Below are positions 15,501-50,182 of a stretch of 64,000 bases of DNA, piece after piece. The stretch comes from Crambe crambe. Its lineage: Eukaryota; Porifera; Demospongiae; Poecilosclerida; Crambeidae. Below the pieces are notes generated by a model, which had not been told where the DNA came from, ran no database searches, and saw nothing but the letters and a program-made list of their open reading frames with translations. The DNA lies in NCBI GenBank assembly GCA_963924555.1, contig OZ004593.1:2042480-2106479 (forward strand). The letters are read 5' to 3'. Both the position numbers and the translations under genes were made by a program. Position 1 is the stretch's first letter, and each line of letters begins with the position of its first letter.

Positions 15501-16463
15501 ACATTTCATACTCTTCTGCAAATAGAATCTGATTACTATCACATGCATATGCTTGATCGAATGCTTGAAATCCTAGCAAATGCTTGGCAAGCTTCCTTAC
15601 TGGGATTTCTCTCTCTTCCAGAGATTTCTGGAATTTTGTAAAGAGTGCTTCATATTTCGATAAAATAAGCATTGACCGTGCTCTATTTTTCTGCTCTCTT
15701 CTTTCACACTCCCCTGCAGAGAATCCACTTTCTGATAAAGTTATGGAATGAATACTATTATCATCCACTTCAAATACTGGTTTAGGCTTTACTTTGGCAC
15801 TTGGAGCTGTAGTCCCTTTTTGCTTCACACTAATATTGGATGATTGAATATTCGTTCCTTCATCATTACTTGCTTGAATACTCATTCCTTCATCATTGCT
15901 TGCTTGAATACTTGTTCCTTCATCATTGCTTGCTTGAATACTCGTTCCTTCATCATTGCTTGCTTGAATACTCGTTCCTTCATCATTGCTTGTTTGAATA
16001 CTTGTTCCTTCATCATTGCTTGCTCGAATACTCGTTCCTTCATCATTGCTTGCTTGAATACTCATTCCTTCATCATTGCTTGCTTGAATACTCGCTCCTT
16101 CATCATTGCTCGCTTGAATACTCGCTCCTTTAGCTTGAATATCCATTCCCTCGTCATTGGTTGCTTGAATACTTGTTTCTCCACCTTTTTTGTGTTCATA
16201 TGCTAAGGAATAAAAAAGTCTTTTATTGAAAGAAGCTACAGCTTCTGCTAACTTTCTCCAATTCGGACATCCGAACTTCTTTACATCATAATTAAGACAA
16301 GACCACTCCTTGACCACTTCGGCAAGACGATCAAAGCATAGAGGGTGATTTGCAGCGATAGTATCTAAAATAGACATGGATATCCCTAGATTGCAACCAA
16401 TTGTTTTCCAATGAGCCTCAACTGGTTTCAGAGCACGTATTACATCATTAAAATCACTTTCAC
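9522..16463 (-). CDS. Death-domain / ankyrin-repeat protein (large, multi-exon)
   Basis: Predicted intracellular death-fold adaptor or receptor. Exons by splice sites and phase (5' to 3' on the minus strand): 16463-15010, 14945-14906, 14844-14728, 14659-14558, 14490-14387, 14324-9522. Together they encode about 2205 residues with no stop; one or more earlier exons are missing, since the first exon starts in phase 1. Residues about 1-85 form a death domain (motifs WKTIGCNLGIS, VKEW, WRKLAEAVA). A linker of about ten 10-residue repeats (SIQASNDEGT) follows, then a region of about 210 residues (from YEALFTKFQKSL to SGEFVYSV) of unknown function that I recall as common in this sponge. Four short exons lead to about 45 ankyrin repeats. 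Stop at 9522. A start at the first ATG of the last exon alone is possible but would drop the death domain. Confidence 0.8.
10310..13660 (-). repeat. Eleven tandem 306 bp units (three ankyrin repeats each)
   Basis: The ankyrin exon contains eleven copies of a unit of about 102 codons (DKYE..TPLHLAAANGH, then GDTPLLLAAIHGH, then HNAIHVAAIKGH). Most copies differ by a few bases, and the spacing is 306 bp or differs by whole codons; one copy near 11720 lacks a single codon. Such uniformity suggests recent expansion or gene conversion. Confidence 0.9.
14387..14945 (-). repeat. Serially duplicated short linker exons
   Basis: Three short exons share the ending LQLNE(T/K)..KLDPG followed by the donor CCAG|gtag, at 14945-14906, 14844-14728 and 14659-14558. 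A fourth (14490-14387) is more diverged. The symmetrical ones are phase 1-1 and multiples of three (117 and 102 nt), so each can be skipped without a frame change. This implies exon duplication and possible alternative splicing. Confidence 0.7.
15838..16134 (-). repeat. 30 bp coding minisatellite
   Basis: About ten tandem 30 bp copies encode SIQASNDEGT-type decapeptides in the linker of the death-domain/ankyrin gene. The truncated exon copy at 20830-21309 has only about three units, so copy number varies between copies. Confidence 0.9.
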
Positions 16464-16534
16464 CTACAATAATAGAAAAAGATAAGAAAGTAAAGCTAAC
16501 AAAATATAATTAAGTTTATCAGTATAGTGGGTGT

Positions 16535-16721
16535 TGTAGTGTTTAGCGTATCACAATGACTGTATCATTATTATCTAATTATGTATCACTCTTGTTATTT
16601 CCTTGTATCATAAACATGTTATGATGTAATAGATAGACATGTGATATAGACCTCATGCTTATGTAGACATTGGAAAAGAAACTAAAGAATCCATTGTCAT
16701 CCATAGAGTTGGAATACTACA
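16535..16721 (+). mobile_element. 5' LTR of a Ty3/Gypsy element, with primer-binding site
   Basis: A 187 bp segment begins TGTAGTGT and ends ATACTACA, giving the TG..CA ends with short inverted repeats usual for LTRs. Two bases later comes TGGCGACGAGGA (from 16724), a plausible primer-binding site matching a tRNA 3' end in CCA. gag begins at 16770. No second LTR was found to confirm the borders. Confidence 0.6.
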
Positions 16722-16769
16722 ACTGGCGACGAGGATTCAACAAGACAGTTATTTCAAAGTGCTTCAACT

Positions 16770-17576
16770 ATGGCTTTCAAGGTTGAAGTTACACCGCTCC
16801 CAATGTTTGACCCCATGTCAGATCCCAGTTCCCTCAGTCAACGCTGGAAAGCTTGGAAGAACAGGTTTGAGACATACATCTCAGCCATTAATGTCACAGA
16901 TGGCAAACAAAAACGTGCTTTGCTGTTGTACCAAGCTGGGCAGGAGACCCAAGAGTTGTTCGATACGTTCACAGATACAGGAACAGACTATGCAACAGCC
17001 ATGACTAAATTAGACACTTATTTCAACCCCAAGAAAAATGTGGACTTTGAAACATTCAAATTCAGACAAGCAACTCAACAAGAGGGTGAGACAGTCGATC
17101 AATTTGTCACACGTCTGCGCAAATTGGCAGCCACCTGTGAGTTCACAGATCTTGACAAAGAGCTCAAGTCAGCTGTAATACAGCATTGTCAGTCAAAGCA
17201 GTTACGACGTTTTGCCTTGAGGGAAGAAAATCTCACATTGGACAAGCTATTGACCAAGTCTCGAGCATTAGAAGCAAGCGAAAATCAAGCTAGGGGGATA
17301 GAACAGTCGAGTCATGAAAAGATCAACTATCTCCGTGAACCAAAAAAGACAACAGGTCACAGTTCTCAACATAAAAAGCGTACGTTTTCCCAGAATCAGT
17401 GTCGCAAGTGTGGTTTTAATTGGCCTCATGTAGAAAGTCCATGTCCGGCAGCAGGAAAAAATTGTCGCAACTGTGGGAAGGCTAATCATTTTGCTAGAAT
17501 GTGTCAGAGCAATAAGACTCACTATACTCAGCAAGGTCAACCTCAGCGAAAGTCAGCACACAAGCATAAATCATAA
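16770..17576 (+). CDS. gag: Gag of Ty3/Gypsy retrotransposon
   Basis: 268 codons from ATG 16770 to TAA 17574-17576. The middle is a retrotransposon Gag region (ETVDQFVTRLRKLAATCEF), which forms particles and packages the element RNA. The C-terminal end has two cysteine clusters: an atypical CRKCGFNWPHVESPC and a regular CCHC zinc knuckle, CRNCGKANHFARMC. The stop is in the same frame as pol, which stays open from 17577, so Gag and Pol are separated only by one TAA. In related elements these are often one frame. Whether the stop is read through or is a disabling mutation cannot be told here. Confidence 0.9.
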   Translation: MAFKVEVTPLPMFDPMSDPSSLSQRWKAWKNRFETYISAINVTDGKQKRALLLYQAGQETQELFDTFTDTGTDYATAMTKLDTYFNPKKNVDFETFKFRQATQQEGETVDQFVTRLRKLAATCEFTDLDKELKSAVIQHCQSKQLRRFALREENLTLDKLLTKSRALEASENQARGIEQSSHEKINYLREPKKTTGHSSQHKKRTFSQNQCRKCGFNWPHVESPCPAAGKNCRNCGKANHFARMCQSNKTHYTQQGQPQRKSAHKHKS

Positions 17577-20462
17577 GTTCATCAAATCTCAGTCACACCA
17601 CCACAAGACGACAATAGTGATGACAAAGAATTCTTGTTCGTTGTGGGCCAGGGTGTCAATGATAAGAAAGTACCGAAAGTTACAGCTTCCATCAGTGGAG
17701 TTCCAATCAGCATGACCATTGATACTGGAGCTTCGACCAACATAATAGATGAAGCAACATTCACGAAAATTGAAAAGCAGTCGTCAATCAAACTTCAATC
17801 AACATCTACTCGTATTTTCGCATATGGTTCATCATCCCAGCTAGTCACACTCGGAAAATTCAACGCTTCCATCACAACTGGGAGTATGAGTACTGAGACA
17901 ACTTTTCACGTGGTGCGAGGAGCACATGGATCACTCTTGAGTTATACTACTGCACATGCTCTTGGTGTCGTGGATGTCAAGATTAATGCTATCACAGCTG
18001 GAGATGAGTTGACACAGAAGTACCCTACCCTCTTTGATGGAATTGGAAAGCTTAAAGACTTTGAAGTCAAGTTGCACATCGATCAATCTGTAAAACCAGT
18101 TGCTCAACCAGCCAGGAGAATACCATTTCACTTGAGAAAACAAGTTGAAGCAGAGCTTGAAAGACTTGAACAGCAGAACATTATCGAAAGGGTAGATGGG
18201 CCTACCCCATGGGTTTCTCCTTTGGTAGTAATTCCCAAGAAGAGTGGTGAGATACGTTTATGCATCGATATGCGAATGGCAAATAAAGCTATACTCAGAG
18301 AACGTCACCCGACACCCACAGTGGATGACCTTATACATGCCATGAATGGGTCAACTGTATTCTCCAAGCTTGATCTGAGATCAGGCTATCACCAATTGTC
18401 ACTTGCTCCAGAGAGCAGGTACATCACAACCTTCTCAACACACAAAGGCCTGAGACGGTTTACAAGACTGAATTTTGGAACTAACTCAGCGAGTGAATTG
18501 TTTCAACATGTGGTGAGTGAACAAATCAGGGACATTCCAAATGTGATGAATGTGAGTGATGACATCATTATTTTTGGGAAGACACAACAGGAACATGATA
18601 ATGCTCTAGAAGCCGTCTTCAATCGGTTTGCTAAGATTGGTCTGATTCTCAACAAGAAGAAGTGTGAATTGAGCAAGAACTCTTTGTCATTTTTTGGATT
18701 TGTTTTCTCCTCCACAGGTGTTTCTCCTGATCCGGCAAAGGTGAAAGCAATTCATGAAGCACAGCCACCAACATCGGCAAGTGGAATCAGAAGCTTTCTC
18801 GGTATGGCCACTTACTGTGCAAAGTTTATTCCCAATTTTAGTGATATCACCAAACCATTGAGAGAATTGATAAAAAAGAATACTCATTTCCAGTGGGGAG
18901 ATGATCAGCAACAAGCCTTTCAGAGAGTTAAAAATTTACTCACCAGTGATACTGTAATGGCATATTTTGATAACAACAAAATAACAGAGCTGGTTACAGA
19001 TGCATCACCATGGGGATTGTCGGCAATTCTCTCACAGCATACATCCGGTCACAATGATCGCAAGATAGTTGCTTTCGTCAGTAGATCACTGTCAGATGTT
19101 GAACAGAGATATTCTCAAACAGAAAAGGAGGCACTCGCCATTGTCTGGGCGGTGGAACGTCTTCACTTGTATCTCTGCGGTGGTCATTTTCAACTCATAA
19201 CGGATTGCAAGCCAGTGGAGTTGATTCTTAATAATCCAAAATCAAAGCCACCTGCTCAAATTCAGAGATGGAATCTGCGTCTCCAAGAGTACGATTTCTC
19301 AGTAGTCCACACAAAAGGAATCGACAATCCATCTGATTTTCTGTCAAGGCATCCTAGTCAATATACAACTCCACAACAAGAACAAATGGCTACAAGATAC
19401 GTAAACTTCATCTCCTCCCATGCTGTTCCCAAGGCAATGTCACTATCTGAAATTGAGGAAGCAACAAAAGAGGATGTCACATTGCAGAAATTGGCAGATT
19501 TCATCCGCACCAATGGCTGGGACTCACTAAATGATTTATCTGACCAGACAGGAGTGAATATGACTGAATTGAAGCAATTTTCAAAGATTAGTGAGGAATT
19601 GACAGTGAATGACGAGGCCAGCATTATATTGAGAGGATCTCGAATTATAATGCCAGAAAAGCTAAGAGAAAGAGCAGTAAACATCGCTCATGAAGGCCAT
19701 CAGGGCATAGTGAAAACCAAGCAACTTATCAGAGAAAAGATATGGTTTCCAGGTCTGGATGACGAAGTGAAGAAAGTTATCAGTGACTGTTTAGCCTGTC
19801 AAGCAAATGGACCAGACCAACGTCCTGATCTGTTGCAAATGTCTCCATTGCCACCAGACCCTTGGCATACTGTACATATTGATTTTTGCGGACCGTTCCC
19901 AACTGGAGAGTATCTTTTGGTTACAATTGATGCATATTCGAGGTTTCCTGAAGTTGACATAGTTCGGTCAACCGCAGCCAAAGGGACAATTAGCAAGTTG
20001 CAGAGGATCTTTTCTACACATGGTATCCCAAAGATTGTCAGAAGTGACAACGGTCCACCTTTCACTAGCCATGAATTCAAGATATTCATGAATGAGTATG
20101 GCATCCAACATCAACGATGTACTCCCCTATGGCCACAAGCAAATTCAGAGGCTGAGCGGTTCATGAAACCATTGACGAAAGCTGTTCGATCAGCTCGTTT
20201 AGAAGGACGTGATTGGCACAAAGAGTTGTATGTTTTTCTACTTAATTATCGTGCTACTCCACATGTGACTACAGGAGAGTCTCCATCCAAATTGCTTTTT
20301 AATCGTATGATTAAGACCAAACTTCCACAACTGGCACCAGAAAATAACCAAAGTGATAAAGACTTACGACAAAAGGATGAAAAAGCCAAGGAAAAGATGA
20401 AGAGATATGCTGACAAGAAAAGAAAAGCACAGCCATCGAAACTTGTAAGTAGCTCTAGCTAG
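17577..20462 (+). CDS. pol: Pol of Ty3/Gypsy retrotransposon (protease, RT, RNase H, integrase), 3' truncated
   Basis: Open in the same frame as gag from base 17577; the first ATG is at 17634. In order: aspartic protease with DTGAS; reverse transcriptase with a VSDD catalytic box (the form seen in K02A2.6-like Gypsy elements); RNase H with VTDASPWG and TDCKP; integrase with an HHCC zinc-binding region (HEGHQG to CLACQ) and all three DDE residues (the D of IDFCG, the D of RSDNG, the E of NSEAE). The frame runs off after AQPSKL into sequence that looks like host DNA, and no 3' LTR follows, so the element is truncated at its 3' end. Internal frames are intact, which suggests a fairly recent insertion. 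Confidence 0.92.
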   Translation, partial: VHQISVTPPQDDNSDDKEFLFVVGQGVNDKKVPKVTASISGVPISMTIDTGASTNIIDEATFTKIEKQSSIKLQSTSTRIFAYGSSSQLVTLGKFNASITTGSMSTETTFHVVRGAHGSLLSYTTAHALGVVDVKINAITAGDELTQKYPTLFDGIGKLKDFEVKLHIDQSVKPVAQPARRIPFHLRKQVEAELERLEQQNIIERVDGPTPWVSPLVVIPKKSGEIRLCIDMRMANKAILRERHPTPTVDDLIHAMNGSTVFSKLDLRSGYHQLSLAPESRYITTFSTHKGLRRFTRLNFGTNSASELFQHVVSEQIRDIPNVMNVSDDIIIFGKTQQEHDNALEAVFNRFAKIGLILNKKKCELSKNSLSFFGFVFSSTGVSPDPAKVKAIHEAQPPTSASGIRSFLGMATYCAKFIPNFSDITKPLRELIKKNTHFQWGDDQQQAFQRVKNLLTSDTVMAYFDNNKITELVTDASPWGLSAILSQHTSGHNDRKIVAFVSRSLSDVEQRYSQTEKEALAIVWAVERLHLYLCGGHFQLITDCKPVELILNNPKSKPPAQIQRWNLRLQEYDFSVVHTKGIDNPSDFLSRHPSQYTTPQQEQMATRYVNFISSHAVPKAMSLSEIEEATKEDVTLQKLADFIRTNGWDSLNDLSDQTGVNMTELKQFSKISEELTVNDEASIILRGSRIIMPEKLRERAVNIAHEGHQGIVKTKQLIREKIWFPGLDDEVKKVISDCLACQANGPDQRPDLLQMSPLPPDPWHTVHIDFCGPFPTGEYLLVTIDAYSRFPEVDIVRSTAAKGTISKLQRIFSTHGIPKIVRSDNGPPFTSHEFKIFMNEYGIQHQRCTPLWPQANSEAERFMKPLTKAVRSARLEGRDWHKELYVFLLNYRATPHVTTGESPSKLLFNRMIKTKLPQLAPENNQSDKDLRQKDEKAKEKMKRYADKKRKAQPSKLVSSSS

Positions 20463-20829
20463 TAGATTTCAATAGTCTCATGCGCCGACCACAAGGGAAA
20501 GAAAGGGTCTGGTGACTTGCCTATACACGACTTGTCCTGTTCTCCCATGAATCCTGGGAAATAATACTTCATGTTATGATTGGCACTACTAATCTACATG
20601 TATGTTGACAAAACCGTGTGCCTCATTAATTCAGGCCCGTACACAAAGGGGGTTCAGGAACCCTAATCGGGCACCCACACATGCACTGTGCATGATTAAT
20701 TTCAACGTGTGCAAATGCTGAGTTGGCAGATTAAACAATTGTGGCTGGCTAGTAAGAGGAAGGGAGTCTCTTGAAGTACTTCAAGACTTAGGAAGACACT
20801 GAGCAAGGATCAAGTGGAGCAAAAGAAAG
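20463..20829. other. Gap between Gypsy pol and the death-domain exon relic
   Basis: No reading frame of note. It lies where the end of pol and the 3' LTR would be expected, but no LTR copy is visible beyond a short match (catgttatgat) to the 5' LTR near 20570. Confidence 0.5.
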
Positions 20830-21309
20830 TTATAGAATGAATACTACTATTCTCACATTCTTCATATACTTTTTTAGGCTTTATTTTGGCACCTGGAGCA
20901 GCTGTAGCCCCTTCTTGCTTAACACAAATATTGCTCACTTGATTATTCGTTCCTTCATCATTGCATGCTTGAATACTCGTTCCTTCAGTGCATGCTTGAA
21001 TATTTATTTCTTCACTTTCCTCTTTGACATCTATTTTGTGATCATATGCTAAGGAATAGAAAAATCTTTTATTAAAAGAAGCCACAGCTTCTGCTAGCTT
21101 TCTCCAATTCGGACGTCCGAACTTCTTTACATCATAATTAAGATAAGACCACTCCTTGACCACTTCAACAAGACGATCAAAGCATTGAGGGTGATTTTCA
21201 GTGATAGTATCTAAAGTAGACATGGATATCCCTAGCTTGATACCAATTAATTTCCAACGAGACTCAACTGGTTGCAGAGCAAATATAACATCACAAATAT
21301 CACTTTCAC
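20830..21309 (-). pseudogene. Truncated second copy of the death-domain exon
   Basis: It begins at the same phase-1 acceptor (tcgtag before 21309) as the exon at 16463 and encodes a full death domain (WKLIGIKLGIS, VVKEWSYLNYD, WRKLAEAVA), about three decapeptide repeats and the start of the following region, up to SSIHSIT. Homology then stops near 20830 without a donor site. It could be an alternative 5' exon, but the lost end argues for a relic left by the duplication that made the tandem genes. Confidence 0.7.
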
Positions 21310-21419
21310 CTACGATAACAAGTGAATATTTTTTAGCTGAGAAGTGAAGTACAAATAATTTCATGTTTGAGGTGTGAAGCAATAATCTTAAGCACACACA
21401 TGGTGAAATGATACTTCGC

Positions 21420-22420: not shown

Positions 22421-22714
22421 CAAGTAAGGGAAAAAACATTTCTTGAAATGAAAAAAAGATGTAGGGATGACCACTGTTTGAAAAAGTAAGGAAATAAGAA
22501 GGATGGAAATGTTATTCTGTATATCCAGCCAACAATCCCTACATATACGTCGGGTAGCTTTAGATTATAGTGCAGTAATGTACGTATATGTAGGGATTGT
22601 TGGCTGGATATACAGAACAAAGATTGATCCCATTTCCATCCTTCTTATTTCCTTACTTTTTCGAGCAGTGGTCATCCCCTACATCTTTTTTCACTTCAAG
22701 AAATCCTTACTTGT
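22421..22714. mobile_element. Foldback element, family 1, copy 1
   Basis: A long near-perfect inverted repeat: the left arm starts caagtaagggaaaaaac and contains tgtagggatgaccac; the right arm ends ttacttgt. The arms, about 130-145 bp each, meet around 22560. Related copies are at 54644-54942, 55488-55777 and 55780-55871. The right flank (22715-22872) matches, in reverse, the flank of the copies near 55400. It carries no protein. RNA from it would form a long hairpin. Confidence 0.85.
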
Positions 22715-24477: not shown

Positions 24478-25442
24478 CTTTGTCTGAAATAGTAGGCAAA
24501 ACTTTTTTCACATCATCATCATCTAAGAAACCAAAAGTAAGTGGCAGACTACTAGATTAGGAAACAAGCTACCTTACTTACACACTATACATACCAGCAT
24601 AGGTATAGATAGTCTGGAATCACGTAATACTTTGAATTGTTTCCAACTTGGGCACACGTCAAAATATAGTAGCCACAATGAAATGTCATAGCATAAGCCT
24701 TTCCCATATCCTGCGAACAAAAATATCTCTCCCAGATATTTTAGAACAACCCTCGATAACCCAGCTTCGCAGCTGTATGGTTTTAAACTTTGTTGTAGCT
24801 GTATAGCCATTGAGAAAGGTCAATAGGTCATGACATCATTAGCTATCATAATACTCATTTAGCAGATTTTCTGCTAAAAGAACAACTTGAAGTGTTACGT
24901 GATTCCAGACCCTCATACTTCAGCTCAGGGCTGCACTACCCTCTGTGTGATGTTAATTGTAAACACTTACTTGAAAGTGGCCCAGGGTTCAATTCTACAT
25001 CTCCTGACAATAACAGAAGTAGAAAAGAGAGAAAGCTAGAAAATAGCATCTTAATAATGCTATATAACTTGAACGTCCAGTTCATACATTCAGTGGATAC
25101 AGCTTTAAGCCTTGATACTTGAGCCGAGAGCTTCATAAAAACGAGTGAATCACTTGAATATGAACGATAGGTATGAAGAGCTTTCACTCTTAAATGATAG
25201 AGGGGTTGCTTTAGGTGTGAGACTCTCTCCTCCTTCCTCCTCCTCCTCCCCCAGAAGGAATGGATGGCACAGATGAGGAGCACAAAGCCAAAGACAGCCA
25301 GCCCTGATTGAGGGAGGGACATGGTCCTCTCCATCTGCAGGCTGGTGGTGAGGGGACGTCTCATCTCCCACTGAACCTGCTTCCACAAGTAGCGACCGAC
25401 AAGTCTCGCATGCGAGACCACAGCTCGAGATTGATGGGGCAT
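24478..25442 (-). CDS. Membrane leader ending in a 2A-type motif; partial gene
   Basis: Exon 25442-24971 runs from an ATG (MPHQSRAVVSHARL) for 157 codons to a donor CTTTCAA|gtaagt. It encodes a likely membrane segment (SGLAVFGFVLLICAIHSFW) followed by RRRRKEE, then a second hydrophobic stretch (MLFSSFLSFLLLLL) directly before GDVELNPGP. That last motif fits the 2A consensus D-V/I-E-x-N-P-G-P, at which ribosomes release the upstream chain and continue from the final proline. A possible next exon, 24522 to about 24478, continues in phase with DDDVKKVLPTISDKEL, which resembles the lead-in to the death domain of the gene at 46631. The rest is not found; the intron contains a transposon relic. Leader plus 2A: fairly sure. 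Downstream part: weak. Confidence 0.55.
24574..24810 (-). pseudogene. RecQ-type helicase relic
   Basis: The minus strand encodes KYLGEIFLFAGYGKGLCYDI, which resembles the motif I region of RecQ-like helicases (VF..LPTGYGKSLCY) in a decayed form. The flanking text gcagattttctgct near 24860 also occurs in the Mutator-like element at 53994-54566, which carries a clearer RecQ fragment. It probably sits in an intron of the 2A-containing gene at 25442. Confidence 0.4.
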
Positions 25443-30560: not shown

Positions 30561-30800
30561 TAAATAATAACTATGACGCACGATCATGAAGCCTGACCAT
30601 GTGCTGAAAGGAATATCAGGAAACAGAGTGAGTAGACTATCATCTTGTCTATCAGCTAGACTACTTCTGTCTTTTTCTTTTACACAGATATTAAAATTTT
30701 AGTTTGACCACATGCTATCTAGCTACTGACCTACTGATCCAGATATTAGGAGTCAAGTGAGTAGCTACTACATAGCTTCTATCATAGCTACAAATTAGTC

Positions 30801-33800
30801 ATGGATCATCTTAGCGAGATCATCAAGCAGGAGAAAAAAACTTGTGAAGAAAATAATGCCAAAGAAACATCCAAGCTAAAAGAGTCGCTTCGTGCTCTTC
30901 CTAAGAACCTAACTTTACAACAGCTCCGTGATTTTGAAACGAACAAGAAACTGTTAGAGGGTTCAATCGATGAGAGCAACTTGCGTAAAGAGGTATTCCT
31001 ACATTACTGTGGTGAGATCGAAGCTGAGTTGGAAGAACTTAAATCTTCCTCTGTGGACTTACCAACATGTATTGAACTATTAAATGCCAAGTTTGAGAGG
31101 GAACATAACCGTTATGAAAAAGGTTTTCCAATATATGCGCACCGACTCAACATCATGAGAGTGATTGAAAGTAAACAGGTGTGTATTGTTATCGGCGAGA
31201 CAGGTTCTGGTAAAAGCACTCAGCTGGTCCAGTTCTTGTATGAGGCTGGATATGCAACCAACGGTATGATTGTTTGCACTCAGCCGAGAAAGCTGGCTGC
31301 CATTTCTTTGGGTGAGCATGTGAGTAGAGAAGTGAAAGAAGATGTCGGTGAAACGTATGGTTATGTTGCTTCAAAAAGTAAACGCTATGAGAAGACAAAG
31401 GTGGTTTTCATGACAGACCACAGCCTTCTCAATGAATGCATAGCTGATCCTAACCTCTCCAAGTACTCGTGTTTGGTGATTGATGAGGCCCACGAGAGAA
31501 GCATTCACACTGATATCTTGATTGCTCTGATCAAGCGTTGTCTACCCAACAGGGAAGACTTGAAAGTCATCATCACTTCAGCCACCATTAATCCAACTCT
31601 CTTCTCTCGCTACTTTGGCGGGAAAGAAGCATGCCCAGTAGTCGAGGTGCCAGGTCGCACGTATCCAGTTGAAATGAATTGGGAAGAATCTGAAGTACCA
31701 ATTGTCACTCGAAACTATGTATCTAAAGCTGTGAACAAAGTCCATGATATTCATATCAGCAATTACAATGAGCCAGGAGATGTACTTGTTTTCCTCACGT
31801 CTCCTGTTGAGATTGAAAAAGCCTGTAAGTTAGCACTGGAAGCACTGAAAAATGAAGTGGTCATTCTTCCCTTACATGGAAAACTCCAGCCAGAAGACCA
31901 GCAAAAGGTGTTTGAGCCTGTTGACGGGAAACGGAAAGTGATCTTTTCCACAAATGTTGCCGAAACTTCTGTTACAATTTCTGGCATCAAGTACGTGATT
32001 GATACTGGTCTGTCTAAAGAATTGTGTTATGACCCACAGAAGAATATGAATTCTCTTGAAATAAGGCCAATCAGTAAGAGTTCAGCAAATCAACGAAAGG
32101 GTAGGGCTGGTCGAACTGCTCCAGGAGAGTGTTACCGCTTGTATTCAGAGAGCGACTATGACAAAATGCGAGACGATTCTGTCCCAGAAATTCTTCGAAT
32201 CACTTTAGCTTTCGCTGTCATCAAGTTGTATGAGTTCGGGATAAAAGATATCCATTCCTTCGAATTTGTGGAAGCACCAGATAAAAATGCACTGGATAAA
32301 GCTGTTGAAAACTTGAAATTTCTTGGTGCTATTAAAGACGGAAAGCTCACTGACCTTGGAAAGAGAATTGCTTTGCTTCCTCTGGATCCAAGTCTGTCTA
32401 AAATCCTATTCGATGCTATCGAAAGGGGAATTGGTATTGAAGCCGTAGCTGCTGTGGCAATCTCTACTCTGGCCGGCAGGATATTTTTTCGACCCAGCAA
32501 TGATGAATCAAAAGCCGAAAGTGACAGAAAACGTCTCCCTTTCTGTCAGCTGTCAGGAGATCAGATGACTTACTTGCATACATATTTCGAGTGGTCTCGT
32601 CAAAAACGACAAGATCGAAACAAATGGTGCGTTGAGAATTACGTCAATGCCAAGAGCATGAGGATGGTACAACAGATAGTTGATGAATTGCGATTTATTT
32701 TAAAACAGAAGTGCAATATCGACATGCCATCTAAAATTATTTCACTCGATAATGCAAGTGAGATTTTGCCTCGACTCTTCTTCGATGCTTTTTTGCAGAA
32801 TATTTGTGTCCACTTAGGACATAGAAATGTCGGCTATTGGTGCAAACAGCTCCCAACAGAGCAATTGGCCATACACAATGGTTCATCCCTTTACTATCTC
32901 AGTTCCATCCCTCAGTGTGTGATCTACGAAAAGACTCAAAAAACTAGTCGCCATTTTTTGCTTCAAGCACTACCTGTTCATGAGGAATGGATCCAAGATG
33001 CTATAAGTAAGGGTCAACTCCAATGCCACCCTGCCGAATCTTCCTTGTTCAAATTTTATCAACTTCACTGTTTATCCTTTGATAAAATCGGACCCAGTTT
33101 GTCTTCAAAGCTGACTCAGAAATTCCCAGAGTCCAGAAGAAAGTCAGTACCAGAGTTTAGCTATTTTGACATACAACCAGTGTTTGAGCATTCTCGACAG
33201 CATGGAACTCTTGCAGTTTACTGTCAAGAAATCTACCACAACCAAGTGCAAGGATTAGTGAGCAACTTCATCGAATCCACCAAGAAAGAGCTGAAAGAAG
33301 AATCTCATGAGTGTGGTATACTGAGTGACAACGATGATGTACGAATTATCATTGGTGCTGGTGGTTCCATTCAGCGTTTACTCATGCCAGATGACTTTCA
33401 AATAATCATCGTTCGAGGATTGAATGACGAATTCATACCAGCTGCCACTGAAGAGCTGAAGGCATATGGGGAGTGCAGTGTCGAACGTAAGTCTACATGC
33501 ATTGTTGTCAAGTACCAGGATTCAGCTGATGCTTTGAAGGCTCTAAATCATCGATTCGCAAATCCCAGTATTGTGATACAGCAGTACAAGAACCAAAAAA
33601 AGCACCAATTTTGCATGAAAGTGGAGTGGAGTCGGAGGGCACGTCGTGATCATGCATTTATCAATTTCAGCGACAGTAATTTCTTTGATAGATATTTCTC
33701 TCCTTCATTTTCTCAGTATCGTAAAGGTCTTATCAAAGATACCATATCTGAACTGCGATTTCAAGCCAACAATGCAAAACATTTCATAAAGGTTAATGCT

Positions 33801-35465
33801 ATTCGGTCAGACACAACTAAAGAGCTCATTATATCTCGGCTTCTTCATCTTGTACCTCAGGCTGAAGAAACTGTATTTAATCAGTATGCATCTATAGCTT
33901 TCCTATATGATGCTCCGTTCGAAGAATCAGAAGATAACCTTGCTCGACAAAGAAATTCCTTTCGTTCAAGTCTGGCTCGGTATGCTACACAGAATAAGTA
34001 CTATGTGAACTTTATTGATCCGAAAGATAAGAAGACAGTGATGTACAGAGCATTTGTTTATTGTGATGATGCAGACACCTATATTAAAGCTGTGAAAGGG
34101 TTGCAAGAAGAAGGAAGTAAATACACATGTGAGTTAACTTTATCTTCCTCGGTACGGTACACTCGTCAAATGTTTTCTGTGATTGAGGCTTCCATTCAAG
34201 AATTGTGTGAGCATTATTCAAAATCTCAGATGCCTGTTAAAATTGAATATGGCAAGAAAGATAAATGGGGGAATAGATTTATCGAAGTGTCCTCCAGTTA
34301 TATCGATGCATTTAAAGAAGCTAAAGAGAGTTTGAGCAGAATTGTTGAACCGGATGTTATAACTGTCACCAAACATGAAGAAAGTATCTATTTATCCACA
34401 GTTCATTTTATGGAAAGTGTGAAAAAAATTCAAGAAAACTCTAAAACTTATATCAAAATTGGTTCAAATAGTGTCACAATATATGGCACAAAAAAGCAAC
34501 GTGAGGTGGCTAAAAAAGATATTGAAAAGGATATCAAGACCTTGATGCAAGATGGAACCCGCTGCTATAAAATCGACTTTAAAAAGTTTAGGCCTGGTCT
34601 AATGAAAGAGCTGATATTGAAATATGGTGCCAATGTTGTCGGAATATCCCTCACAACTAAAGACATCAAAGCAGCCAGACTAGACCCCAGGAAACAAATT
34701 CTCACTCTCTTTACCACTGAGGCAGCTTATCGATCTTTTTTCGAAGATTTGAACAAGTTTAACCCCAATTGCAAGGGTGTTACTCAACAAGCTACTATTC
34801 ACGATGCGACAAAAGAGAATAGTGAGTGTTGTGTGTGTTTTGAGACACATGATCACGAAAGGCAAACAGCCTCTTTTATTAGACTCGAATATTGTGGACA
34901 TGTTTATTGTAAAGAATGCGTTGAATTGCAATTACAATCAACTTCAATCACTTTCCCTATCACTTGTGCAACAGAAGATTGTGAGCAGGAACTTGTTTGG
35001 AAAGACTTCGAAAATCTATTTCGTATTGGAGTGAAGAGTTTACGAGACATCACATCTGCTTCTCTTAAAGCTTATGTATCAAAGAATACAGCTACTGTTC
35101 ATAATTGTATCACTCCTGATTGTGAAATGGTCTATCTTTATTCAGAGAGTGGTCAGAGATTTATCTGTGGTCAATGTGGTGCTAACATTTGTACCCACTG
35201 TCACACCACTTGGCATGAAGGTTATACGTGCAGTGCCTATAAAGATCGTGATAATCGAGATGCCCAGTTAAGAGCTTGGATAACTAGAGATAAGGCTAAT
35301 CGCAAAATGTGTCCAAAATGTGAAGTCCCCATTGAAAAGAATGGTGGTTGTTTACATGTGACATGCACACAATGTAGGAGCCACATCTGCTGGAAATGCC
35401 TACGCTATTTCTGTACAGCAAAGGAATGCTATGTTCACCTGGGTAATTGTGCTGGAGGTTATTAG
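30801..35465 (+). CDS. DEAH-box RNA helicase fused to a RING-IBR-RING (RBR) ubiquitin ligase module
   Basis: One uninterrupted frame of 1554 codons from ATG 30801. Residues about 130-480 form the helicase core: Walker A GETGSGKST near 131, DEAH box (VIDEAHERS) near 226, TSATIN, and motif VI QRKGRAGRTAPGE. Helicase-associated C-terminal domains follow to about 750, then a long region of unclear fold. The end is an RBR module: RING1 from CCVCFE near 1341, IBR with CGQCGANICTHCHTTWH, and RING2 with CPKCEVPIEKNGGCLHVTC, which keeps the cysteine expected to carry ubiquitin (GGC). The product should unwind or remodel RNA and transfer ubiquitin. The same fusion is known in plant DEAH11/DEAH12. No intron is visible, unlike the neighbouring multi-exon genes. 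Confidence 0.93.
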   Translation: MDHLSEIIKQEKKTCEENNAKETSKLKESLRALPKNLTLQQLRDFETNKKLLEGSIDESNLRKEVFLHYCGEIEAELEELKSSSVDLPTCIELLNAKFEREHNRYEKGFPIYAHRLNIMRVIESKQVCIVIGETGSGKSTQLVQFLYEAGYATNGMIVCTQPRKLAAISLGEHVSREVKEDVGETYGYVASKSKRYEKTKVVFMTDHSLLNECIADPNLSKYSCLVIDEAHERSIHTDILIALIKRCLPNREDLKVIITSATINPTLFSRYFGGKEACPVVEVPGRTYPVEMNWEESEVPIVTRNYVSKAVNKVHDIHISNYNEPGDVLVFLTSPVEIEKACKLALEALKNEVVILPLHGKLQPEDQQKVFEPVDGKRKVIFSTNVAETSVTISGIKYVIDTGLSKELCYDPQKNMNSLEIRPISKSSANQRKGRAGRTAPGECYRLYSESDYDKMRDDSVPEILRITLAFAVIKLYEFGIKDIHSFEFVEAPDKNALDKAVENLKFLGAIKDGKLTDLGKRIALLPLDPSLSKILFDAIERGIGIEAVAAVAISTLAGRIFFRPSNDESKAESDRKRLPFCQLSGDQMTYLHTYFEWSRQKRQDRNKWCVENYVNAKSMRMVQQIVDELRFILKQKCNIDMPSKIISLDNASEILPRLFFDAFLQNICVHLGHRNVGYWCKQLPTEQLAIHNGSSLYYLSSIPQCVIYEKTQKTSRHFLLQALPVHEEWIQDAISKGQLQCHPAESSLFKFYQLHCLSFDKIGPSLSSKLTQKFPESRRKSVPEFSYFDIQPVFEHSRQHGTLAVYCQEIYHNQVQGLVSNFIESTKKELKEESHECGILSDNDDVRIIIGAGGSIQRLLMPDDFQIIIVRGLNDEFIPAATEELKAYGECSVERKSTCIVVKYQDSADALKALNHRFANPSIVIQQYKNQKKHQFCMKVEWSRRARRDHAFINFSDSNFFDRYFSPSFSQYRKGLIKDTISELRFQANNAKHFIKVNAIRSDTTKELIISRLLHLVPQAEETVFNQYASIAFLYDAPFEESEDNLARQRNSFRSSLARYATQNKYYVNFIDPKDKKTVMYRAFVYCDDADTYIKAVKGLQEEGSKYTCELTLSSSVRYTRQMFSVIEASIQELCEHYSKSQMPVKIEYGKKDKWGNRFIEVSSSYIDAFKEAKESLSRIVEPDVITVTKHEESIYLSTVHFMESVKKIQENSKTYIKIGSNSVTIYGTKKQREVAKKDIEKDIKTLMQDGTRCYKIDFKKFRPGLMKELILKYGANVVGISLTTKDIKAARLDPRKQILTLFTTEAAYRSFFEDLNKFNPNCKGVTQQATIHDATKENSECCVCFETHDHERQTASFIRLEYCGHVYCKECVELQLQSTSITFPITCATEDCEQELVWKDFENLFRIGVKSLRDITSASLKAYVSKNTATVHNCITPDCEMVYLYSESGQRFICGQCGANICTHCHTTWHEGYTCSAYKDRDNRDAQLRAWITRDKANRKMCPKCEVPIEKNGGCLHVTCTQCRSHICWKCLRYFCTAKECYVHLGNCAGGY

Positions 35466-41556: not shown

Positions 41557-43106
41557 TTATGGAGCAAATTTTAATGTGATATGCAGTAATAAGTCAGTGC
41601 TATGCCTTACAGGTCTCATAGGAAGTACTTGAATACACAAAAGATCTGAAAATTTGACTAAAGATGAATGATCAGTACGTCTGACAATCCATGAATGAAA
41701 ATGTGAGTCAAACTGTACAGTTTCGAGCTGTCCAAGATCAAGCAACACAACAGAGCCCTTTCCCACATATATGTTCTTGACTTCACCAAATAGTGGCTGC
41801 TCACAATCAGTTACACTTCTTATCACAGCTATCTTTGGTTTTACCAAGATTCCATTAACTTTGACCCACTTGGCACTACACATAATAGTTTATAATCATT
41901 GATTCTGCAGTTTTTGGAATTCCAACCTCACCAAAAAACATTATCATTGCCAGTAAGACTTAGCTCCGCTGCATGTTCAGTGTGTTCTACTCGTACTTCC
42001 TTTCCTAATGAATAAATGTGCATGCAAATAAAATATCAAATATCACCAGTGATCCATCTAAGCATAGTTATGTATGTACCTGGTCCTACATCAACATGAT
42101 TTGAGAGAAAATTTTCAGAATTTAGAGCATGCATAACACTGAAAGCACTGATGCCTCATTGCCAGGGAATAATAGATGTTGATAAAATTTCCTATGGTAG
42201 AGGATAGGTGCTTAAAGTATTGATGCTTTGCCTCGTAACACATAGCCTAATACCTGATTAGTGGGCCAATGCTATGAGATCATACAATAAAAGCAATAAT
42301 GGCTTATTTATAACCCTGCTTCATGGGTATTCAGTGGGCATTAAATGGAAACAAGAGGTTTAAGATGGGATCCATGTAGTACTATAATATTAATTTAAAT
42401 TACCGGTCAAGAAAACAGGGTATATGAACCAAAAAGTGCATTTTCGGTATAATTGAAGCATCAGGATACAATAGTTGGAATTCTGAAAGATGATTTTCCA
42501 GGGTGACTTGAAGATATGATGGCGTATCAGGCTGAACAACCTGGGCAAAAATAAGATCAAGTATATCCAATAGTTCGAGATAATGCTGCCAGTGAGGATC
42601 ACTTTCAGGAACGTTTCATCCTATCAAGAGTGGAAGATAGCGAGCCAGTGTCCACATTTTAGAAGCTATAATAATTATTCTGTAAAATAAATTACTATAA
42701 CACACCTGCATTAATAAAGTACTGGTTGCATAGTTTGTAGTCTGCTCATACCTGACTGGTTCAAACTTCCATCACTAGATGAAAATGTAGTGGGATAAAT
42801 TATAGTAGGTTTTGTTTCCATGTAGCCATAATGAAAAATTTTTATATGATGGTTGAGATCATCAAGACTGAACAGCTGCTTTTCGCCTATGTAATGTTTC
42901 AGCATCAGTTTGATCTTATATAGAACATATCCTTCAAGCAGATCATGCATAATATCTGGTGGCAAACCATAATCACAGATATCATAAAAGGTGAGGTCAT
43001 TAAGTGGAGTTCGGCTATTTATCCCGTAAGTGGTGGAATGATAAGAACGGTCATCAATTCTTTCAAGGACACTACACATTCTATCGTGTTCTTCAGGTGA
43101 ACGCAA
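41557..43106 (-). pseudogene. Transposon-like multi-copy gene (HDLLEG family), broken
   Basis: Three exon-like pieces in order on the minus strand: 43106 to about 42750 (LPPDIMHDLLEGYVLYKIKL, donor after LNQSG), about 42690-42403 (DPHWQHYLELLDILDLIF and SIIPKMHFLVHIPCF), and about 42230-41557 (FINIYYSLAMRHQ, then KWVKVNGILVKPK near the end). I recall proteins of this layout as highly copied in cnidarian and sponge genomes and probably transposon-derived; the enzyme class is not certain. An in-frame TGA near 42620 and a frameshift near 42130 mark it as a pseudogene. It lies directly 3' of the NACHT exon, where leucine-rich repeats might be expected. Confidence 0.55.
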
Positions 43107-43204
43107 TACAAGTATTTCTCATGAAACTATTAAGAAGCATATTGAAAAATAAATTATGTATAACCTAATAAATGGGTAAAGTAATACTGACCTTCAATCT
43201 GAAC

Positions 43205-46200
43205 TCATAAAGCCTTGGACAACTGTAAAAGAAAAGTTTTGATGTCTAGTGAAAGTTCAGAAATGTCTCGAATTTCATATAAACAATGCATTAGGTAAGA
43301 ATCAAATTGGGTCAGGATTCCTTGAAAGATTTTTTCATTGTAGCCCACAATACCACACAAGAACTGACCAAAGACTCTGAGGTGTGGTATCACTTGTCTA
43401 AATCCAGATTGGGATACTATTTTAGAAGAAGCTTCATCTACTAAGTCAGAATGACATGAAACATACCAAGCAGCAAGAAACTCTTGGATGCTGAGATGGA
43501 GGAAGGAGTAGGAGGTTGCTGCACCCTCACACACGTACATCTCTTTGACTGTATTCATGAGACCTAAATGCTGGAAACCCTCTCCAACATCACTATCAGT
43601 AAACACTAGCTGCACATCTTCCTTAAACAGACCACTGTAAGCTAGTTGACTAACTCTCTTAAGGTCTATGGAAACACTTTCTGGTAGATCTTTAAGACTA
43701 CTGGGTACTCTTGTATCCTCGTCCCATTGCCCACTAGAAATCATGTGCCTCCTGATCAGAACTAGAGTAAGGGTGGTGTAGAGCTGTGTCATGGTTTTGG
43801 GCATCAGCTCTCTGCTCTTTCTGATGTCTTTGTACACTTGTGCAATAATGGCACAATTGACAGGAATGTACATCAGTGAGTTAATGACAGGGTTAGAAAA
43901 TATAAAATCCTTAAAGTGAGCAAGAACCTTGGGTTCTGATTTGAAAGCTATTTCTGCATATCTTACTTTGCACTCATCAGTGAAACCAAGTATCTCTACA
44001 TGCCTGAAACCCTGAGGAAAGTAACTCTTAAGAGCAGATGGTCGACTAGTAACAAGACGAGTAGCTTTAGGTAAGCAAGAACCACTAATTAATCGCATTA
44101 TCAAACTGTTCTCTTTACGAATCACGGAAGGCATCTCGTCAAAACCATCCAATATGAATAGGACACCCTCCCCCTCACATTTCCACACCTCATTCACTAC
44201 TTTCTGACGAAATTGCTCATCATCATGATATATCAGGTCCTCCAAGGAAGTAGCATTCTGGACCCTTCCTTCACGAAGCTTTAGCTGAAGTACCATTTTA
44301 TAGTGTTTTAATGAAGTCAAGGTGTCCCACTTCCTGCATAACTCCCAGGCCAAAGTGCTCTTACCAATGCCAGGGGGTCCTTCCACCAACACAAACCTTG
44401 TCCCTGAAGGTACAATGTCGTCCAATTCTAAAGGACTCTTTGCTCCTCTAATTTCATCCACACCACCATGCAGGGACGCTTTTGAGAAAGTGTGGTCTTC
44501 ATGAATGGTTCTACCCTTATCCACCAAAGCAAGGCTAATGAACTCACTACAAGGAGCAATGGAGAGTTTGTCATCACGAGCTACAGACTCATTCTGGTAA
44601 TATGGTTTGAGATATTTATTTGCATATTGCATCAGTGCTGAGTGCTTAACTTTCCCTTTCCTTAGAGATTTACTGGAAATCTTCTTGGAATGTTTTTTGT
44701 GATGAGTTTTCCTCCTGCGTTTTTTCGTAGTGGTCACGTGATCACTATCAAAGGAGTCAGAACCAGTGGCACTACTTGATGTAGATGATGGACTAGATGA
44801 TGAGACTACATGTTGTCTTTTCTTACTTTTCTTATGTTTGTCCAGTACCTTGTGTTTATTTCCTTTATGCTGCCTTGTGGAGGCAAAGGGTGTCTTACAT
44901 TTAGTTGGTGGAATGGAGGAAGACTGGTTAGAGCTGTCACTGTCACTGGACAAGGATGAGGCATTCCTGTATTGGATAAATATTTTGCGTGCAGTGATTA
45001 ATTGTATATACAATGATGTGTGGCAACTGTAATCTCAAATGAACACACTTTCCTACAATTAGTAGTCTAGTTCTTAAACTTTTCATCTATGTGGGGGAAA
45101 AATCTAGCAATTGGACTATATAGACAGGAAATGATGCTACTCTCTCATGCTCCGAGTACAAGTCTGTTATAATAGTAGCTGAAACACTTGATCATATTCG
45201 CTATGATATCAAGGGACATGTTTGAGAATGTACTAGAATTATTAAATTGTGATTCCTATCATTAGTGTTTAGCATAGCAAGTTGGTAATGGTCTCCAACA
45301 TTAAAAGCTAGATAATTTAGTGTGGTAATGGTCATCAATGTCATAAACACACTTCCTTGAAAATATAAGCCCCTGGATGCAGCTACCATATTCAAAACTA
45401 ACCAGGTCTACCTTCAAAGGGAGAGTGTGTTGTTCAGACTATAGGCAAGTTACTTACAGTGCAGTGCTGTTCAGATGATCTTCAACGCCACCTAAAAAAA
45501 AGAATGTAACTAGTAAAAGTATCATAGATAATACATGTAACCTCCAGCCTCAGAGGGGCAAAGTGGCAGGGTGGTGGAGAGGGATAAGGAGACAGGCTGG
45601 ACGGAGGTGGTCAAGAGGACAGGGGGGCAAGGGGACAGGATGGAGGGAAGGGGGTAAGGGGACAGGGCAGAGCAAGAGGACAGGATGGAGCCCTAGTCTG
45701 AAACATCATATTTACACTGTACCTTGCGTAATACTTACAGCTACTCCTTCTTGCCCTATTTCATGGAGTGCTGACTTGAGACTCCTCCAACTGGGTTCAC
45801 CGCTCTGCTTAAGGACATTGTCTTCTTTATTGAGCCAGGCACACACCAATTCTTCAAGCAATGGATCCATCTTCCTTAACTTGGGGTAGGAGAGTCCCAG
45901 AGCCCCACCCAACTTCCACAAATCCCGTTTGCTGAGAGTTTCAAGAGATTGAACAACTTGGAAGTGATCATCCATTGTTAGTTGTCCTATGAAGATTTAA
46001 TAGAACACATAATAGTATTGCTTCAAAAACACATCATTTAAACTGCATGCACTATATTACATGAGCAGCAAGATGCATCATAATGTATCTGTCCTCAATA
46101 TGAAAATTCAGTCCAGTGTGTGCAATGTTCTTACCAGGTCCTGGATTAGTCTCCACATCACCAGCCAGCATCAATAATAAATGCATCACCACTTGAAGAA

Positions 46201-46631
46201 GATCAGAACAATGGACCACACTAACAGCTTCTTTAAGAAGAAAAGACTTCCAATTCCCTCCCAGTGGTGATCCCACCAGGGACGAGTGGACTTTGACCTT
46301 CTCATCATCGGGACAAGAGCGGAGTGGAGCCTTCGACAGATGGGCTTGAGGTTTAGTCATCTCTCTTTGAGATTGAGTCACAGCAAGTTGCCACCACAAC
46401 AGCATCAGGAGACAGTTTAGAACAAGCAACACATGCACAACATCCAACACGTCACCTGAAGAGAGTCATTTCAAATGTCCAGACTAATTGAATTTAAAGT
46501 ATAAGCAATAAGTAGCTACTCTCACCTGCCGCCAATAAGTGATGGAGTTTGGGGGAGATAGGAAGAGAGCTGTGATGACTGTCCACCACAGAGTGAGATG
46601 ATAGGGTAGGCCTTCTGCTTGGGTCTGTCAT
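43205..46631 (-). CDS. NLR-like receptor: transmembrane leader, 2A motif, death domain, NACHT
   Basis: Exons by splice sites and phase: 46631-46526, 46455-46135, 45986-45723, 45491-45458, 44966-43205; 828 residues from ATG 46631, the first ATG after an in-frame TGA. Residues about 38-60 are a membrane segment (VVHVLLVLNCLLMLLWWQ). Residues 134-142 are GDVETNPGP, an exact 2A consensus preceded by hydrophobic MHLLLMLA; the chain would break before proline 142. A death domain follows at about 146-225 (WKLGGALGLSYPKLRKM). A serine/lysine-rich linker leads to NACHT: Walker A GPPGIGKST near 437, Walker B LFILDGFDE near 512. The frame ends soon after the NACHT helical region (LLQLSKAL) with no leucine-rich repeats. 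Predicted products are a membrane peptide and a cytosolic death-domain/NACHT signalling protein. All five exon phases agree. Confidence 0.82.
46135..46161 (-). other. 2A ribosome-skipping motif GDVETNPGP
   Basis: It encodes GDVETNPGP and ends exactly at the exon donor (GGACCTG|gtaag). In known 2A peptides the bond between glycine and the last proline is not formed and translation resumes at the proline. Function here is predicted from the motif only. Confidence 0.8.
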
Positions 46632-46684
46632 AGCAATAATACTGCCTCAAGTACTGCACTCGAGATTTCCACAGGCACACGAAC

Positions 46685-49600
46685 TCACACTTCATCATCA
46701 TTCTCCCACCCACAGCTGCATAATACACAATCAGTGGTTTGACTCTCCTGCACAATTAGCTAGTCTCAACAGGCCACATGCATTCTTAATGAACAACATT
46801 ATCATATCATCAGATATACAGGTTTTCCATTGGCCAAGCTTTTCACCCCCAGCTCTCACAGGCTACGTGCATTCTCCTTCCCTGCATGCACATATCACCA
46901 GACCTTCAAACAAAGGACAGGTCCCTCATTCAAAAGCCTTTCTAACCCCCTGCTGAGCCTGGATTCGATGTGGTCACAGCATAGACTTACATACTTTCAT
47001 CTTATAATAGAGGCACGTGCACGCCGCTCTAATTAACTGCAAAATAATTATTATATTTCAATATTACTTTCTAAAATTATTGTGCTGACAATGCACTAAT
47101 AATTGTGGAGTTCGAGTAGAAGATCAACTTGCAGGCAGGTCAGTTCTTCTTCTTCAAATACTGTGCAGATACATAGATCTAACATCAATTATTAAGAGAG
47201 TCTTGCCACAATCATGACTTACCTCTAAAATATCTTTGGCTATCCCTGCTTGGCTGTTGTCTTTGAGGGTTTCAATGAGAGCTTTCCAGCTGCGAGTATC
47301 TTTCCCATTATAGCAGGTTACCCTGTCTTCCCCATTCAACCACGCACACACCATATCAGCAGGATGGCTCTTCATCCTTTTCAATCTGGGAAAGTTCAAT
47401 CCAAGTGATCCTCCCAAATCTATTAGCTGCTCATCGTCAAGATTTCTGAGACACCGACAGACTTCATCATGGTCATCTGCTGTTAGTTGATGTGACGGGG
47501 CTTAAATAAAGATAACAATGAAATTATTTCTACTAGACAAAGGACTCTTTTACCACTGGCAATATGGAAGATGTCTCCTCTGAATTGGACATCTCCAGAT
47601 AGACTCTATAGAAGGAAACATTTTGTTTGGTCAAGAGATAAAGAGTGTGAGCAATATGTGTCCTTACTTCTCCAAACCAAACTCCATGCACTGGTTTCAA
47701 ACGAATCGGTTCCTTTCTTTTGGGATTTTGTAGACACTCCATGAACTTTGCACCTTCTTTGGCTAGCACACAGAGGTGGTCTTTCCCTGGATGTTTTGGG
47801 CACTCGAAGCAATACTTGTATTTCATGTCCAGCTGGTGATATATGTGTGATGTCACCGTCTCCAAAGTGTACCAGATAACACTGCGAATTCGGGCACACA
47901 AATCTTTTGTTGAAGTTTGAAGATTCGATTCAGATTCTTGACGTGTGATGATAACTTCGATATACAATGGTCGTGAGATTAGAGTCACCATATCATAGTC
48001 GTCTCCAACGTAAAACTTTACTTTGTTTTTCCGTATAGGATCTTGGATCATCTCCCACCCATCTAGTCTCTGGGATACAATACTGGTGATCATGTAGGTG
48101 AATATACCCATAGGCACATAACCACACTCAGATTGTAATATCAAAGGAGCTGGATCGTGACTGGAAGTTTGGACTGTTAACTCGTCATTTCTTGCACTCT
48201 TCAGGATACTTGGCATAAAGTATATGACTCCTTGAGAGGAACTAGCTCTTTTTGAGGATACGGGAATAAAGCTTGTCAAAATGTTTAGATACTCGAGAAG
48301 TTTAACGAGCTTGTCGAATGGGATGAGAGAAGTAGAGTCCGACATGGCCTTTTCTATATCATCTTGTGAAAATTGCCCACTTTCCTTAATTTCTGTTGCT
48401 CTCTTTCTAAATTTACTGAATGTAAATGTCTCCTTGGCAAGCTTTGTAACGCTATCAAATACGACTTGTACATCACAAATGACTATGTCTTTCAATGCTT
48501 CCAAGTTGGGATAGTATAAAATCAGACCAGCATGGCGGTGCAGGAACCACAATGCCTCCTGCAGCTCACTGGAGCTGATTCGAAGGCTGCCTGCTAGCTT
48601 CACACATTCCTCTAACTTCATTGTACGTATTTTTCTTTTGCGTATGCATATACTGAACATCAACCAAGAAGCGGGAATTGTGATCTTTCTGAAGCTTTTG
48701 ATTATATCTTCCAGAACTGCTCGTATTCCATCTAACTCAGCTTGGTCACCATCATAGTTATTGACTGCCAGCATCATTTGATCTTCATAGGCATTCTCAA
48801 TAGTGTCACTTTTGTAGAAGCTTGTGTTCTGAATTCTTTTCTTGAGGAGTTCATCTTTTTCTCTTAACTCTTGGTCAGTTACTTTGTCTCGATGTGTTCC
48901 CACAAAGAGAGCCTTAGATTTGAGGTGATTTGAATATCTTTTTGCAGCTCCATTTCTGTCATTTTCAAGAAAACACTCACTAAAGCATTCGATGCTAGAA
49001 AGAGCCTGAAACAAGACTTCTTCCACAGTCAAGGTAGAATCTTCCTTATCAGTGGACACACCTTCTTCATTGGTATAATACACTTTATAAAGACTGTCCA
49101 GTTGGTCTGTCAATCGGCTGAAGAGTAAATACAGGGATGGACCCATGACGAGGGCAGCATGCATTTCTAAAAACTCTGCATGACCACCAGTGTCAGTATT
49201 TATCAAAAGCACGATATCGTTCAGTAGATATTTCACTTTGTCCCAATCTTCAGCTTGCATCGATTCTCGGAAAGCAGAAAGTATTTCATCTGTATCCTCC
49301 TCCATAGTCTCTGATTTGGTGGGGTCAGTTATTGGTGATGAGGCTCTGTCTTCTTCAATAGGTGAAGCTCTGTCATTCCCAGACAGTACATCTGTGTGGG
49401 GTCGTGAAGCAGCACTTTCTTCAATGGATGTGGCTGAATCTTCCTCTGCTCTTGTAGGATCACTGTTAGCAACTTGATACAACAACTGATTGTATATCCC
49501 AGCTTCTTCTTGCAGGCTTTCTGGTTTTGACCATATCCCTGATGAGATGGTAGCAATTTCAGTGGAGAGATTCCTAATAATAACCAGTCCTCTCTCCTCC

Positions 49601-50182
49601 ACTACTCCTGTGCTTGGTTGCTCCTTCTTGTTGGCTGTCAATATATTCAAGATCTCGCCCATTAAACGAAGCAGGGTGGATGTCTTTCCCGAGCGAGGAA
49701 GACCAAAACTAACAAGCCGAACAATGTTGATATCTACAGTGAGTTTTTCTTCAATGATCTTCAAACAGGCAGTCATGTGTTGATCGATTTCATCACGGAG
49801 TGCAGTAGCTAATGAATTTTATAAAGCTATAATTATCATCTGATTCCAAGATGAGACATTCATAATAAATGTATATTGTTAGCTACAGCTGTCATTATGT
49901 CCACCAACCTAAAGATCCATCATCAACAGACAATAACAACATTTCTTCATATATTGAATAAAGTGAAAACACAATTAGCTACTAGCTAATATAGCTAACC
50001 ATAGCTACACTTACTTTGCAATGGTGAAGCTGAAGGTTGATCCATCTGTATGGAATAATAATATTATAATAATATTATTATTAGTAGTACGTATATTAGT
50101 ATTGTGTGGCTTATTCTTACCTCATTTAATGAGTAAGTGTGTGATTGATCATCCACTGAAGGCTGGTACCAAGCTGAAGGTT
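46685..50182 (-). CDS. ROCO-like GTPase with C-terminal death domain
   Basis: Exons: 50182-50121 (start unknown; phase-1 entry), 50045-50015, 49808-47668, 47605-47554, 47500-47223, 46747-46685; 854 residues if the ATG at 50045 is used. A Ras-like P-loop (FGLPRSGKTS) lies near residue 46, the DxxG switch (DTGGHAEF) near 210, and GTHRDK as the base-recognition loop near 310. A region resembling a COR domain follows, then a death domain (HQLTADDHDEV to WKALIETLKD). Members of this class (DAPK- and LRRK-related) act as GTP-dependent scaffolds in stress and death signalling. The large exon is open to TAG at 47533, but a good donor at GAA|gtaagg and a 52 bp exon join in phase to the death domain. 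The last exon (21 codons) is less certain. Confidence 0.72.

Follow-up and report, generated by a model that had tools for sequence, protein, structure and literature searches.

Putative StopGo (2A) signals between membrane-type leaders and death-domain receptors recur in a sponge genome

The genome of the sponge Crambe crambe quite probably uses a functional-type StopGo (2A) signal as a genomic module, in which the 2A closes a membrane-type leader that is set before death-domain receptors, to judge from the motif, its context and its recurrence. 2A/StopGo, or "ribosome-skipping", signals are best known from viruses. A pattern search of the 143-Mb genome returned 167 DVExNPGP sites (64 + 62 + 41) and 40 DIExNPGP sites, ~200 in all, with the reversed-pattern control for each core giving 0 each time, so that the arrangement noticed by a preliminary description in one stretch of 64,000 nucleotides (the window, on contig C16) proves to be recurrent in the genome. 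The sites are clustered and lie on several contigs. Immediately ahead of the core, (A/S/C)G together with Leu at position -5, neither of which formed part of the search pattern, is found at 56 of the 56 distinct sites read, with the upstream context of all 56 being that of the L-rich (A/S/C)G class as set out in PMC12846837, where a tested representative of the class (motif 6) supported StopGo in vitro.

Because the loci were picked by their core, the value of pN = 0 within it is circular, and therefore only the synonymous variation, which is present inside the core among the sites compared, and searches with core-free leaders count. Two leaders with the core left off were used as queries against the genome and gave 62 and 66 matches, corresponding to 69 distinct places, one of which was left out of the count as its match spans no more than residues 1-38 of the query. 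An intact D(V/I)ExNPGP directly follows the leader in 67 of the 68 homologues that reach the core position (62 continuing into DVExNPGP, five into DIExNPGP), these homologues not being independent trials since many of them arose by recent tandem duplication. Amongst the lower-identity matches to one leader query (≤67% identity), the core is present in 19 of 20. The sole homologue without the core at the expected place (L051, G000:C11:2666000-2666400) has a leader intact to LLLCG followed by unrelated sequence, with an exact core ~0.5 kb beyond the break, which suggests an insertion between leader and core.

In the window, all exons of the 2A gene lie on the reverse strand, and the observation made by the preliminary description is confirmed in the sequence, with the five modelled exons joining into 828 codons and GDVETNPGP forming the end of exon 2. 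Exon 2 (46135..46455), which carries the leader and the 2A, is in phase 1 at both ends and has homologous exons at 60-odd other places. It contains the hydrophobic segment VLDVVHVLLVLNCLLMLLWWQLAV (46379..46450), a probable transmembrane helix with a 19-residue Kyte-Doolittle hydropathy of 2.35, and the Leu-rich run QVVMHLLLMLAG (46160..46195) immediately precedes the core DVETNPGP (46136..46159), for which a skip between Gly141 and Pro142 is predicted. The context LLLMLAG ahead of this core is that of the L-rich class with (A/S/C)G before the core (PMC12846837). The death domain follows in exon 3 (45723..45986, phase 1 at both ends), for which Pfam gives no match and whose structure model ranks with death domains; exon 4 (45458..45491) has 34 nt, and exon 5 (43205..44966) encodes the NACHT domain (PF05729, E 4.8e-22), stopping short of a C-terminal region found in the paralogue L031. 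Pfam finds no C-terminal LRR in the window protein (609-codon ORF), nor in L031 at E 1e-3, and no match for the window leader at E 0.01. In the spliced gene model and in the paralogues, the 2A is predicted to share its reading frame with the coding sequence before and after it; its position behind a membrane-type leader and ahead of a receptor with death domain and NACHT, as originally described, holds in the gene models, and the arrangement is conserved across the genome. A viral origin of the leader was also considered and rejected, with none of 24 pattern matches in viral contigs confirmed by tblastn.

The same description had placed the start of a leader of ~141 residues at ATG 46631 (exon 1, 46526..46631, donor GTGAGA, phase 1), and this leader is probably an accident, with exon 1 lacking 31 and 1 nucleotides relative to L031 and L033. 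ATG 46631 is internal and distinct from the start run of the family at 46701; read from the latter (exon 1, 46526..46701), the frame in the window stops after 59 codons, just beyond the exon junction, whereas in L031-L033 the same frame reaches the 2A and the death domain. Homology with a cluster on contig C9 (7.55-7.58 Mb) extends over 43226..49870 on the reverse strand, and was found neither beyond 49870 nor beyond 43226, making this a partial duplicate of 6.6 kb, in which a ROC/COR-like gene is represented by its 3' part and the NLR gene by its 5' part. The NACHT ORF has 609 codons in the window compared with 1085 in L031, its C-terminal half being absent. Given the partial duplicate, the frame-shifted family start and the missing C-terminal half, the window copy, which is damaged and shortened, is probably not a normal working member of the family. 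It is somewhat likelier than otherwise that this copy, taken alone, is a pseudogene fragment cut at both ends, which would yield no product and carry the motif merely by descent; against this stand the in-frame internal ATG and the NACHT ORF, which remains open across its 609 codons with a dN/dS of 0.52 relative to L031 (586 codons), so that a shortened product from this copy is possible.

Immediately upstream of this gene, the window contains a ROC/COR-like ORF with a COR-A match below cut-off and a death-type exon (47533-49818 and 47205-47500, reverse strand), which are the 3' part of a gene related to L032 and L033, both of which bear the same 2A leader; the 5' part of this gene was looked for in the window and not found. 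Just past the end of the duplicated block, an ORF at ~42713-43117 (reverse strand) with a LPPDIMHDLLEG stretch is transposase-like by eye and has no match in Pfam.

The anatomy of the leader is best seen in the intact paralogues L031, L032, and L033, in which an open frame without a stop runs from the ATG run M(M)MKCEF to the death domain, in the order of two hydrophobic segments, a linker, a Leu-rich run, the core, and the death domain. The leader of L031 has 173 residues, with the Gly of the skip being residue 173, and its two hydrophobic segments have mean hydropathies of 2.26 and 2.35 over 19 residues. Net charge in L031 is +5 before the first segment, -1 between the segments, and +2 over the 31 residues that follow the second segment. 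By the positive-inside rule, both leader ends would be cytosolic where members of the window's family are intact. Ratios of pN/pS are below 1 across all leader regions compared, with values for one leader group (n=8) and the window's group (n=4) of, respectively, 0.47 and 0.24 over the initial 31 columns, 0.25 and 0.74 in the linker, and 0.05 and 0.44 in the 16 residues ahead of the core. Across all families, 19-residue hydropathy reaches 1.6 in 33 of 45 distinct sites and stays below this in 12, in stretches of which some may enter introns or end early. The best-scoring GT donor downstream of the core, a few of these donors being weak, is in phase 1 at 44 of the 45 distinct sites, the exception being L038.

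Of 20 loci of 10 kb, 19 have a death-type exon by profile search, located no more than 8 kb downstream and on the same strand; seven of the 20 (L033, L036, L045, L046, L047, L049, and L050) supplied seeds of the profile. L035 has no death-type exon on the same strand within 8 kb by this search, the match in L034 is partial, and the only such exon of L048 is 5.2 kb away, past a long ankyrin ORF. At loci with just 1.5 kb of downstream sequence, a death-type exon is found in 8 of 30, and a first look gave 965 death-domain candidates genome-wide. Amongst 19 large downstream ORFs, Pfam finds NACHT in six (L031, L034, L042 twice, L043, and L049), with LRRs in one of these (L049), and ankyrin repeats in two (L047 and L048); four others (L032, L033, L044, and L045) have COR-A or Roc matches that fall short of the curated cut-off, and seven have no match. 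The same leader is carried by L031, which has NACHT, and by the ROC/COR-like L032 and L033, and the leader therefore extends beyond the NLRs.

Among the matches listed, a NACHT (7) or COR-A (21) match lies within 30 kb downstream and ahead of the next 2A at 28 of the 167 DVE sites, compared with 5.3 for random positions (sd 2.2, maximum 13 of 300 draws), these not being cut at the next 2A. As the lists comprise the scored subset of the first-look candidates (103 of 232 for NACHT, 150 of 339 for COR-A), the lack of a listed match says little; the NACHT of L031 itself is absent among the matches listed, and its site is credited with another 28 kb away. Most NACHT genes among the matches listed have no 2A nearby. 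A dense array of NACHT ORFs, mostly of ~1,000-1,090 codons among the matches listed, occupies G000:C9:7.06-7.53 Mb (reverse strand), adjoining a 2A-bearing cluster (7.55-7.57 Mb) and containing no exact DVE or DIE core.

The window holds a second 2A leader ORF (L037, 24936..25469, reverse strand, core at 24979-25001), which belongs to a different leader family and whose next death-type exon is in the ORF at 20810-21418 (reverse strand). The downstream part of this second gene comprises 9522-16509 and 20810-21418 (reverse strand) and includes an ankyrin-repeat ORF of 1600 aa. Two similar death-type exons also belong to it, one in 20810-21418 and the other in the ORF at 14932-16509, which contains tandem SIQASNDEGT repeats as well. 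Antisense between the parts of this gene, at 16707-20462 (forward strand), are two adjoining ORFs of 289 and 961 aa that by eye resemble a CCHC-knuckle gag and a pol of Ty3/gypsy type. Two stretches at ~22440-22700 resemble mutual inverted copies and are possibly, by eye, a small hairpin-type mobile element. A single 1566-aa ORF at 30765-35465 (forward strand) shows Pfam matches to DEAH-type helicase, KH, and IBR (RBR-type) domains, a DEAH11-like arrangement.

In the mechanism we propose, the ribosome would make the leader and be stalled by the Leu-rich run and NPG, the leader would be released without a stop codon, and translation would restart at Pro to give a soluble cytosolic receptor beginning with Pro. 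The unskipped product would be the same receptor, membrane-tethered and still facing the cytosol, and a minority of such membrane-anchored full-length form is possible. The sea urchin offers a different scheme, in which a characterised N-terminal 2A of 26 residues is a signal sequence and the unskipped product enters the exocytic pathway (Roulston 2016, PMC4981915). Were the hydrophobic 2A run of the sponge genes likewise a signal sequence, the unskipped receptor would be sent to the exocytic pathway and the skipped receptor to the cytosol, which we regard as rather unlikely overall: some leader families do have one strong hydrophobic segment right before the core and none further upstream (C1 cluster, 2.69), a layout resembling the 26-residue elements described in PMC4981915, but the window's family has two separate hydrophobic segments far upstream of the 2A, and its charges, by a reading of hydropathy and charge only, favour a cytosolic C-terminus.

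A choice made in splicing, with the leader exon kept or omitted and the 2A relevant in one isoform only, seems less probable still. The exon with the 2A and that with the death domain each begin and end in phase 1 in the window model and in L031-L033, so that the leader exon could be omitted with the frame kept; by itself this would leave the retention of the core in nearly every leader homologue unexplained, however, and would add to StopGo rather than replace it. Very improbable is the reading that the motif is inert, a relic of, say, a retrotransposon 2A, and that the product is an ordinary membrane-bound receptor. L-rich 2A is known in non-LTR retrotransposons (PMC4981915, PMC11512398) and the window copy has a degraded look, but the retained core, the synonymous change inside it, the spliced structure of the genes, and the absence of a reverse transcriptase from all 19 large downstream ORFs scanned with Pfam (large ORFs of the fetched loci only) argue against it.

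The proposed use of StopGo as a genomic module before receptors has partial counterparts in known systems. Of the precedents cited by the preliminary description, 2A in sea-urchin NLR genes stands (PMC4981915), while for sponge receptors no report of a 2A was found in the literature searched; a survey outside that literature, Rao 2025 (Cell Rep), the one most pertinent here, may already include such genes. The sea-urchin SpNLR2A, as described in PMC4981915, likewise has D(V/I)ExNPGP preceded by a Leu-rich run, close to the N-terminus in NLRs with death domains, and a membrane-targeting leader parted from its receptor, the parting being predicted here. It differs in that its characterised leader of 26 residues is a signal sequence, compared with 173 residues and two separate hydrophobic segments in L031, and in that related leaders here also front ROC/COR-like proteins; the core of the window ends at residue 142, whereas the ~26-residue 2A of SpNLR2A lies at the very N-terminus. 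Viral L-rich StopGo (motifs 2 and 6 of PMC12846837) has the same core octapeptide and the same (A/S/C)G ending of the upstream hexapeptide, but is embedded in a polyprotein that comprises capsid and replication proteins, in contrast to the cellular, exon-borne elements before receptors described here. Non-LTR retrotransposons likewise place a 2A-like sequence within a cellular genome (PMC4981915 and PMC11512398), though here it sits in spliced receptor genes, without reverse transcriptase in those same 19 ORFs.

We tentatively suggest, with somewhat less than even confidence, that a whole branch of death-domain receptors (NACHT, ROC/COR-like, and ankyrin; up to ~200 genes) consists of StopGo two-protein genes, each yielding a small membrane protein and a cytosolic receptor in a fixed ratio, with read-through giving a tethered receptor. 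Rather than just a discarded signal, the leader would then act as a functional partner, for instance a sensor or restraint at the membrane level, and it would have been distributed over the receptor types in the form of a phase-1 exon module. A 2026 survey still calls StopGo rare in cellular genes (PMC12846837); here it occurs ~200 times in one cellular genome, intact while the surrounding leader diverges, which makes a cellular purpose testable. The putative membrane-bound sponge NLRs of PMC12909245 are likewise NLR gene models with transmembrane segments, which are read there as part of the receptor; an intervening 2A would instead leave most receptor soluble. Any transmembrane segment encoded ahead of a 2A would end up apart from most of the receptor, and conclusions on the membrane NLRs of sponges drawn from gene models alone would be misleading.
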